Both the position numbers and the translations under genes were made by a program. 64,000 nucleotides of DNA. Origin: Pelagomonas calceolata. Its lineage: Eukaryota > Sar > Pelagophyceae > Pelagomonadales > Pelagomonadaceae. The notes beneath the pieces are model-generated. The model was not told the origin of the DNA. It saw only the letters and a list, made by a program, of their open reading frames with translations, and did no database searches. Position 1 is the first letter of the stretch, and every line of letters begins with the position of its first letter. Below, in pieces: positions 51,998 through 53,944 of the stretch. The DNA lies in NCBI GenBank assembly GCA_918797485.1, contig CAKKNE010000003.1, forward strand, positions 4,588,001 to 4,652,000, written 5' to 3'.

Positions 51998-53944
51998 CTA
52001 GCCAGACTCGCCCCGCGAACAGTGGTGCTGCAGGCACAGCAACCACTCGGACATCTCGTCGCCCGAGGCGGCCGCGAGGTGGTAGGGCCGCTCGCGTGTC
52101 TCGATCCGAATGGTGAACGGCCGGTCCGACTCGGGCCTCGGCTTGGCGCGGCACCCCGCGAGGTCCAGCGCGCCGGACCTGTGTGGAAATCAACCAGTGA
52201 GTTAGGTTATCCTGAGAAATATTGCGTGGACCTTCGTGAACCTCCACGCCATCGAACCGACGCCGTCACGGGCGACAACGTCGCGTCCATGGCCTGAAAA
52301 CTCCACGCCATCGAGCAGACGCAGCTACGGAGACAACGTCGCGTCCATGGCGTGGGGCGCCCGAAATTTGATTTCCACGCGGCGCCGGACGGCTTCGGCT
52401 CCTCCGGCCGCCGGTAGTACTCAAGCGTGCCCTCCCGCAGCGCGAAGTAGCGCCGCTGCCACTTGCCCGACGTGGCCTGCTTGTGGAGCCAGCCGCGCAG
52501 CTCGCCGTCGGGTTGCAGCGAGGACGCCGACGGCGGCGGCGCGCCCGGCGTCGAGGTGAAGTGCTGCATGATGCCGGGGAGGTCCCGCTCGATGACGTCC
52601 TCGTAGAGCTGCAGGGTTTCCTTGGACGCCTTCGGCAGCTTCGACAGGTCGTACGTGGCGAGCGTCTGCGCGTACTCGTAGGGGTTCGGGAAGTCGTTCA
52701 GGGGGACGTTGGCCTGCTGCGCGACCTTGCGGAACTCGTCCGGGAGCGTGCTCAGCAACCGCTCCTTGGCCTTGGCCTTGCCCATCATCGACGGCATCGA
52801 CCTCCGGAGGTGATTGAACCTGTGTGGAAATCAACCAGTGAGTTAGGTTATCCTGAGAAATGTTGTGTGGACCTTCGTGAGCCCCCACGCCATCGAGCCG
52901 ACACGGTCGCGAGGAAAACGTCGCGCCAATGGCGTGGAATTGCCACGCCATCGAGCAGATGCAGCTACGGAGACAACATCGCGTCGATGGCGTGGGGCGT
53001 CCGAAATTTGATTTCCACACAGGATTGAACACGAGGCAGTGGGCCCGGCCCTTGCGCACGCGCTTGATGAACTCGTTCACCTTGCGCGTCCGCGCGCCGG
53101 CGGGCAGCGCGTACAGGTCGGCCAGCAGCCGCTCGCGCTCCTCGGACATGAACCGCTCGAGCTCCGGGTTTCGCAGCGGCTTGTCCCAGAACGACGACAT
53201 GTAGCTCCGCTTGACCTCCGGCGTCTTGAACACCTTGCCGAGGAACCACATCGTGCCCCCGTAGACGTGCATGATCTCCTCCGTCGTGAGGGCGTCGGCC
53301 TTGTTTAACACCAGTCTCATCTTCTCGTCGTGCTGGTGGAGGGACTCGATGACCGTCTTGAGCTCGTCCGATATGTCGATCTTGTGCGCGTCGAAGAGGA
53401 GCAGAATCAGATCACTGCGCTCGGCGAACCACTTCACGATCTCGGCGAAGTCGTAGTTCCGGCCCATGGTCTGCTTGGAGCCGGCCAGGATGCCGGGCGT
53501 GTCGATGAGCGTGAGTTCCTTCGTGAGGTCGCACCTCAGCTCGGAGATGCAGAATTTGTTGAGGAACGCGGCGCCGTGGCGGCTGAGCGCTCGGAATGGC
53601 CGTCGCTTGTCGGCCGTCGCGGCGTTGCCCGGGATGGGCGTCGGGCTCGTGCCGTCCATCAACGCGGCGAAGCCGTCCGTCGTCGGCTCGGGGCCGATGT
53701 GGATGCCTGGAAAGTCGCGCCCCGCGAGGTAGCGGATGAACGTCGTCTTGCCCGCCGAGTACTGACCAAGCAGCAGGACCATGGGTTTCGCCAAGAGTTC
53801 CGCGTCCGACAGGAGAGACGTCGTAAACCGGTCGAAGAGCATTTGCTGCTCCGCCCCGCGCACCTTCTCGCCGTACAGGCCCACCAGCGCCTCGGCGACC
53901 GAGCCGTAGTTCGCAGGCGCATACGTGCTCTTCTTGGGGGCCAT
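51998..53944 (-). CDS. EHD-type dynamin ATPase with C-terminal PH domain, three exons
   Basis: Exons 53944-53031, 52819-52391 and 52178-51998 join to 507 aa. The first two thirds match EHD ATPases: GQYSAGKTTFIRYL (P-loop), HIGPEPTTDGF (switch I), DTPGILAGSKQ (G3), LVLNKADAL (G4), the KGRAHCLVFNHLRRSMPSMM region and the helical stalk NDFPNPYEYAQTL. EHDs bind and tubulate membranes in endocytic recycling. In place of the usual EH domain there is a PH domain (residues ~400-500: GWLHKQATSGKWQRRYFALR, LEYYRRPEEPKP-SGALDLAGC, closing DEMSEWLLCLQ). Both introns are young introners and both restore the frame exactly. I know of no such architecture among standard EHD proteins. Confidence 0.92.
52179..52390 (-). 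mobile_element. introner element (EHD intron 2)
   Basis: 212-bp intron. Target duplication GTCCGGCG (52383-52390 and 52171-52178), exact over 8-9 bases. Inverted termini CCGCGTGGAAATCAA and CTGTGTGGAAATCAA. The interior has two hairpin units, each bounded by CCACGCCATCGA and its complement. Donor GT comes from the target, acceptor AG from the element. Confidence 0.92.
52820..53030 (-). mobile_element. introner element (EHD intron 1)
   Basis: 211-bp intron. Target duplication GTTCAATC exact at 53023-53030 and 52812-52819. Perfect 15-bp inverted termini CTGTGTGGAAATCAA. The body is highly similar to EHD intron 2, including the two-hairpin interior and the shared 3' segment CTCAGGATAACCTAACTCAC. 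Confidence 0.93.

Follow-up and report, generated by a model that had tools for sequence, protein, structure and literature searches.

Introner-type DNA transposon copies as the predicted introns of an EHD-type gene in Pelagomonas calceolata

Described introners and the two elements of the EHD-type gene

The introners of Aureococcus anophagefferens and Micromonas pusilla were reportedly recognised by Huff et al. in 2016 as short non-autonomous DNA transposons, which are said to carry one splice site and to co-opt the other from the duplicated target. The elements that we describe here from Pelagomonas calceolata share with these introners the DNA-transposon type, the single carried splice site and insertion in both directions. 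Introner Elements have been reported from P. calceolata itself by Guerin et al. 2022 (PMC9481584), so the case is not new; the text of that paper describes an intron-length peak at ~210 bp, which it calls the characteristic length of A. anophagefferens Introner Elements, and a genome of strain RCC100 with six nuclear contigs, 32.4 Mb, a plastid and a mitochondrion. The introns described below fall in the same 210-bp class. Their kind is already in print, and very probably their family is too. The text of PMC9481584 gives the length peak, whereas the element ends, target duplicates, GC donors and orientations come from the present analysis.

Two further systems bear comparison. The introners of an Aureococcus sp. 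TARA MAG have 8-bp duplicates, as in P. calceolata, but are described as carrying both splice sites and adding 12 nt to the mRNA (PMC9860276), whereas the P. calceolata mRNA is predicted to be unchanged; the P. calceolata ends also hold a GTGTGG, which could in principle act as in the TARA MAG introners. The introner elements of Amoebophrya have inverted and direct repeats and a predicted hairpin, as here, but according to the account in PMC7789003 their direct repeats are 3-5 nt long and their splice sites span a wide non-canonical range, in contrast to 8 bp and GY-AG (GY being GT or GC) in P. calceolata. The same account gives canonical splicing motifs for Aureococcus elements, whereas ~30% of the predicted P. 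calceolata donors are GC.

We analysed a window of 64 kb, by which we mean the whole stretch of DNA presented. The features of the EHD-type gene within it are as follows.

51998-53944, minus strand: EHD-type dynamin-like ATPase gene with a C-terminal PH domain, 507 aa (from the spliced frame and homology)
53944-53031, 52819-52391 and 52178-51998, minus strand: predicted exons of the EHD-type gene (from the spliced frame)
52820-53030, minus strand: predicted intron A, the donor copy of the target duplicate plus element A, 211 bp (from the splice model)
52820-53022, minus strand: introner element A, 203 bp, ends CTGTGTGGAAATCAA, both exact (by end match)
53023-53030, minus strand: target duplicate of intron A, donor copy GTTCAATC, with the predicted 5′ splice site GT (exact 8-mer)
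52812-52819, minus strand: target duplicate of intron A, exon copy GTTCAATC (exact 8-mer)
52820-52834, minus strand: terminal repeat of element A on its acceptor side, transcribed as TTGATTTCCACACAG (by end match)
52179-52390, minus strand: predicted intron B, the donor copy of the target duplicate plus element B, 212 bp (from the splice model)
52179-52382, minus strand: introner element B, 204 bp, with 2 mismatches in its donor-side end and none in its acceptor-side end (by end match)
52383-52390, minus strand: target duplicate of intron B, donor copy GTCCGGCG (exact 8-mer)
52171-52178, minus strand: target duplicate of intron B, exon copy GTCCGGCG (exact 8-mer)
52179-52193, minus strand: acceptor-side terminal repeat of element B (by end match)

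The reading frame of the gene is broken twice, by the 203-bp and 204-bp elements. The initial annotation had held that both introns are made by inverted-end elements with exact 8-bp duplicates, and we located these at 52179-52382 and 52820-53022. Element A is flanked by GATTGAAC at 52812-52819 and 53023-53030, which is GTTCAATC on the minus strand, and element B by CGCCGGAC at 52171-52178 and 52383-52390, which is GTCCGGCG on the minus strand. The 15-bp termini given in that annotation hold for both ends of A and one end of B, but the other end of B departs from them at 2 positions. On the minus strand both introns (53030-52820 and 52390-52179) read GT...CACACAG. Allowing up to 3 mismatches, the 15-mer end matches 6 times in the window against 0.31 expected, and when the 64 kb were scanned for two ends with a duplicate, elements A and B were the sole matches, against 0 for the reversed window.

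Removal of each element together with one duplicate (GT...CAG; 212 and 211 bp) is predicted to restore the codons, as had been proposed: the resulting 507-aa frame encodes an EHD-type protein with EHD and PH homology that continues across the two junctions. The spliced product matches EHD4 (5mtv) with E=7e-107 over residues 16-389, across junction A (residue 305), and the Pfam domains in it are Dynamin_N, DUF5600 and PH, the last covering residues 412-501 and spanning junction B (residue 448). At E<=0.001, Pfam gave no match to an EH domain. The combination of an EHD-type protein with a C-terminal PH domain is, to our knowledge, an unusual pairing. If element A is taken out and the extra 8-mer left in, the frame stops at 318 aa. 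We also considered that intron retention might truncate the protein, and rejected this: with either or both introns retained, the first stop still falls after codon 507 or 508, in the wrong frame. Because retention leaves the length of the protein unshortened, the case for the introns is made by homology and frame, not by stops. We infer from the sequence that both introns are spliced and conclude, on the same basis, that the pair is transposon-made. The two introns are a clean, quantifiable example of introns made by a DNA transposon.

Genome-wide copies and possible mobilisers

The genome assembly has 8 contigs and 32,445,274 bases. The exact 13-bp end of the elements occurs 1,721 times in it (878+843; control, 1+0), and the exact 15-mer end 790+772 times (reversed control, 0); further copies with 8-bp duplicates were found by this search. 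Our sample comprised a census, namely the ends listed for C1:1-1.84 Mb (minus-strand ends past ~1.39 Mb come from the 15-mer list), the 20 best copies by whole-element similarity besides the sister copy, the locus L082 and 36 exception loci, the last defined by 38 ends whose outside 8-mer neither starts with G nor ends with C. Every element in the sample was located via at least one exact end. In the loci taken, 97 elements could be paired and 52 exact ends had no partner, 14 of these in the census. Duplicates match at 6/8 bases or more in 83 of the 97 and at <6/8 in 14, and are 8/8 identical in 29 of the 58 paired census elements. A set of 75 elements was obtained by setting aside 22 of the 97: the 14 with duplicates <6/8, 6 that have GY on either strand but allowed no coding call, and 2 that lack GY, at L036 and L047. 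The features of introners recur in these data, namely many similar introns scattered over unrelated sites of a single genome, terminal inverted repeats with target duplicates of fixed length and, as predicted, one splice site carried and the other taken from the duplicate, with no net change to the mRNA.

The initial annotation had read two copies so alike in one gene as a sign of a recent burst. This did not survive the comparison, since elements A and B are 88.2% identical to each other and each has closer relatives elsewhere in the genome, and a burst local to the EHD gene was rejected. The 28 full-length copies compared divide, at the cut-off used, into two sets of 14; among them the nearest to element B is L028 (95.6%) and the nearest to element A is L021 (91.6%). 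In a genome search with element A, for which 40 of 527 candidates were scored, 6 other places outscore the sister copy and 1 ties with it.

The same end, preceded by the same 8-mer CGAGTAGT, is present at L050 (C3:13 kb) and L078 (C6:3.896 Mb), each of which lies close to a contig end; this fits the 192-kb duplication that PMC9481584 reports between contigs 3 and 6. At L049 (C2:2597756-2598696), three exact ends lie in the same direction, 140-150 bp apart, and two of them have the preceding 8-mer AGGAGCAT; this is perhaps a local tandem duplication of one end.

The 8-bp target duplicates are as in MITEs of the hAT superfamily. A genome search for a transposase with introner ends found none, and the one hAT that it recovered has other ends. 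This hAT, at C4:4499549-4503199 (L042, 3950-7600), has identical 14-bp ends CAGGGCAGCAGAAG, the 8-bp duplicate TTGCTCGC and a 714-aa frame with Dimer_Tnp_hAT. It is ruled out as the mobiliser, since its ends differ from the introner ends; ends common to the introners and an autonomous hAT were accordingly absent from the hATs recovered, of which further ones may have been missed. Searches with KDZ, MULE, P-like and IS1595 models gave 0 matches, with the KDZ and P-like controls also silent and intron-bearing genes liable to be missed. A putative autonomous element at C1:549074-552524 was discarded: the 8-mers outside it differ, and its right end pairs with a nearer left end to give a 71-bp element. 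Carriage by a virus was likewise rejected, on a search with two 19-mers: one was present in 0 viral contigs; the second occurs in one viral contig, within a frame that by eye resembles a phage HNH endonuclease and with no paired ends, and we take this as chance.

Two further observations concern the hAT on C4 itself. It is apparently intact, with one match to its protein in the genome, and its left end lies within a reading frame whose start is, by eye, MYND-like.

Predicted splicing, orientation and RNA structure

We propose that a transposase acting in trans pastes the element into exon DNA, with an 8-bp duplication of the target. The two terminal repeats each read ...TTGATTTCCACACAG outward and would thereby offer a ready 3′ splice site in either orientation, while the 5′ splice site would be the first two bases of the upstream target copy (GT, or GC in ~30%). 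The spliceosome would then excise the target copy and the element, leaving the mRNA as it was. Insertions into non-GY targets are rare, and would most simply be gene-breaking and hence purged. Both the acting transposase and purging as the cause of the GY rule are what we infer.

This model makes predictions about the DNA on either side of an element. We trained codon statistics on long frames and applied them to each flank. Among 48 elements from L001-L082 and the window whose duplicates have at most one mismatch, 41 have the same strand and frame across after removal, and 38 of these are also stop-free; the corresponding values for 2,925 random window positions are 56% and 45% (44.8%). In the census, one open frame runs across 49 of the 58 paired elements, compared with 44.8% of random positions (p=7e-10), and 9 elements lack one. 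Wherever the duplicate predicts one strand and a coding call was possible, the predicted and coding strands agree (46/46; 39/39 without the exception loci and the window). Predicted intron phases (n=60) are 24 in phase 0, 13 in phase 1 and 23 in phase 2. Of 58 spliced translations (17 GC, 41 GT), 20 were picked by eye for Pfam, and the junction falls inside a single domain in at least 11 of them: in 5/10 with GC donors (tRNA-synt_1b, zf-CW, Hydrolase_4, Cation_ATPase_C and ABC_membrane) and in at least 6/10 with GT donors (Kinesin, Glyco_hydro_3, FMN_red, AIRS_C, RdRP and Acyl_transf_3).

The two ends of the elements also differ in what they have kept. The terminal CTG, which supplies the CAG of the predicted acceptor, is changed at 0/75 acceptor ends versus 9/75 donor-side ends (p=0.004). 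The choice of exception loci favours this result, and they were therefore excluded in a second count, which gave 0 versus 8 of 66 (p=0.008); in the census alone the counts are 0 versus 5 of 46 (p=0.06). Positions 4-13 of the end decay alike on the two sides (15 donor-side and 16 acceptor-side elements). Strand agreement and acceptor-side conservation are consistent with the annotated origin of the splice sites, the donor GT coming from the target duplicate and the acceptor CAG from the terminus of the element. The transposon-to-intron mechanism put forward with it is in turn supported by strand, frame, acceptor conservation and Pfam domains across the predicted junctions.

Using an asymmetric subterminal motif as a compass, we found 32 elements in one orientation relative to predicted splicing and 29 in the other, with 14 unassignable. 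The elements thus lie both ways, and therefore either end can serve as the predicted 3′ splice site. Huff et al. are said in a review (PMC10228655) to have reported insertions in either orientation, so both-way insertion here is confirmation, not discovery. Introns could alternatively have spread as RNA, through reverse splicing and reverse transcription, a route proposed for fungal introners according to PMC9860276. Such spread would account for many similar introns, mostly in coding context, but sense-strand RNA copying would not yield 32 versus 29 orientations, and the balance therefore makes RNA-mediated copying unlikely. Together with the terminal inverted repeats and the 8-bp target duplicates outside the element, which also argue against it, this leaves spread as RNA an extremely improbable explanation.

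Three candidate splicing signals were also discarded. A CTAAC branch point fixed by element orientation is ruled out because the elements lie both ways relative to predicted splicing. The TTGAT in the terminal repeat found no support as an obligatory branch point, base 12 of the 13-bp end being changed equally often at acceptor and donor-side ends (5 and 5 of 75). A donor GTGTGG carried by the element is unsupported, because the target sequence would then be irrelevant.

In predicted folds, a terminal stem of at least 10/13 pairs forms in 71 of 75 introns, with the first donor base unpaired in 70, and the two EHD introns are predicted to fold better than shuffles (z -7.8 and -3.6). Such stems, and a donor consensus that is absent beyond GY, would suit a non-spliceosomal removal like that of euglenid nonconventional introns, in which an RNA hairpin of the terminal repeats joins the ends. 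However, the hairpin is expected anyway, because terminal repeats pair by construction, and the borders are not of the non-canonical euglenid type: GY-AG is found in 81/83 elements with good duplicates, and such borders, GY at one side and a CAG kept intact only where it would act as acceptor, are what the spliceosome needs. We therefore regard euglenid-like removal as highly unlikely. The reading that we prefer, of which we are nearly certain as far as sequence can speak to it, is that the introns are copies of a high-copy non-autonomous DNA transposon (a MITE-type introner), with a donor from the target and an acceptor from the element.

The predicted hairpin permits, without showing, a role in donor choice. 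The 5′ splice site might be chosen by position, with any GY 8 nt outside the terminal hairpin joined to the CAG at its other foot, a suggestion that we make tentatively and with more doubt than belief. If true, the element would be a two-way portable intron, and each copy a natural test of a random donor.

The donor requirement and target preference

Because the target is near random and the acceptor constant, the surviving copies amount to a genome-scale experiment on donor needs. In 58/58 paired census elements one strand or both have GY at the donor place, and GY is also present in 81/83 of all paired elements with duplicates of 6/8 or better. These are the unconditioned counts; the 75/75 of the 75-element set is partly by construction, its elements having been oriented by GY. 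Donors in this set are GT in 51 and GC in 24, and without the exception loci and the window they are GT in 44 and GC in 20 of 64. Genome-wide, the dinucleotide at 8 bases outside the end is GT for 703 and GC for 371 of the 1,721 ends, against 5.3% GT and 12.0% GC in nearby sequence. From the 51:24 ratio and dinucleotide frequencies, taken both uncorrected and corrected for the A at position 7 of the duplicate, we estimate that GT is kept about three to five times as readily as GC. Beyond GY, neither positions -3 to -1 nor positions +3 to +6 show a canonical base preference in the 75-element set, and a donor seems to require a G followed by T or C and hardly more. In the main texts that we searched, which did not include Huff et al. 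2016, we found no statement of GY-only donors with ~30% GC for P. calceolata, and none of a split between selection and target preference for its introners. High use of GC-AG is on record for Emiliania huxleyi, at 56% of 241 junctions as given in PMC4028052.

Exceptions to the rule are few. At 38 of the 1,721 ends the outside 8-mer has no G at its start and no C at its end, against ~786 expected from base composition. The donor copy is still GY in 10 of the 17 paired elements at these exception loci, which means that an altered exon copy can account for the odd 8-mer (for example at L048, L057 and L063). The other 7 of the 17 lack GY, and 6 of these have duplicates too poor for the pairing to be trusted.

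The GY rule could reflect the target preference of the transposase and not the loss of unspliceable insertions. GY is present even in the 9 census elements without an open frame, and Hermes, a hAT transposase, is reported to prefer nTnnnnAn (PMC10368747). Consistent with such a preference, A at position 7, the mirror of T at position 2, is in excess over the 18.5% expected, at 23/75 or 26/81 (p=0.004, uncorrected), position 2 itself being confounded by splicing. The 81-element counts restore to the 75 the 6 elements with GY on both strands, because dropping these lowers the count of C at position 8. Symmetric ends, however, imply a palindrome, yet C at position 8, the mirror of G at position 1, is found in 31/81 (p=0.19 against an expected 31%), and positions 7-8 are RC in 21/81 (p=0.08 against an expected 18%), far from the near-fixed G at position 1. 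Among duplicate positions 3-8, position 7 alone stands out clearly (4-base p=0.001, uncorrected for the 26 non-GY positions); position 3 is marginal (p 0.05), and two flanking positions are likewise marginal. Since the ends are alike and so imply a mirror-symmetric target preference, which is absent at position 8, the G at position 1 would come mainly from selection for splicing, and we consider target preference an unlikely source of the rule as a whole. The A at position 7 may have been left by a hAT-like choice of target, of the kind that Hermes makes. One genome begins in this way to separate selection, at position 1, from transposase preference, at position 7.

The second element at L047 has neither GY nor a frame. 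At L036 (C4:4406369-4407367), where the duplicate is good and the frame open, the donor-side duplicate has CT and the exon copy GT, and this locus is a candidate for a lost or shifted donor.
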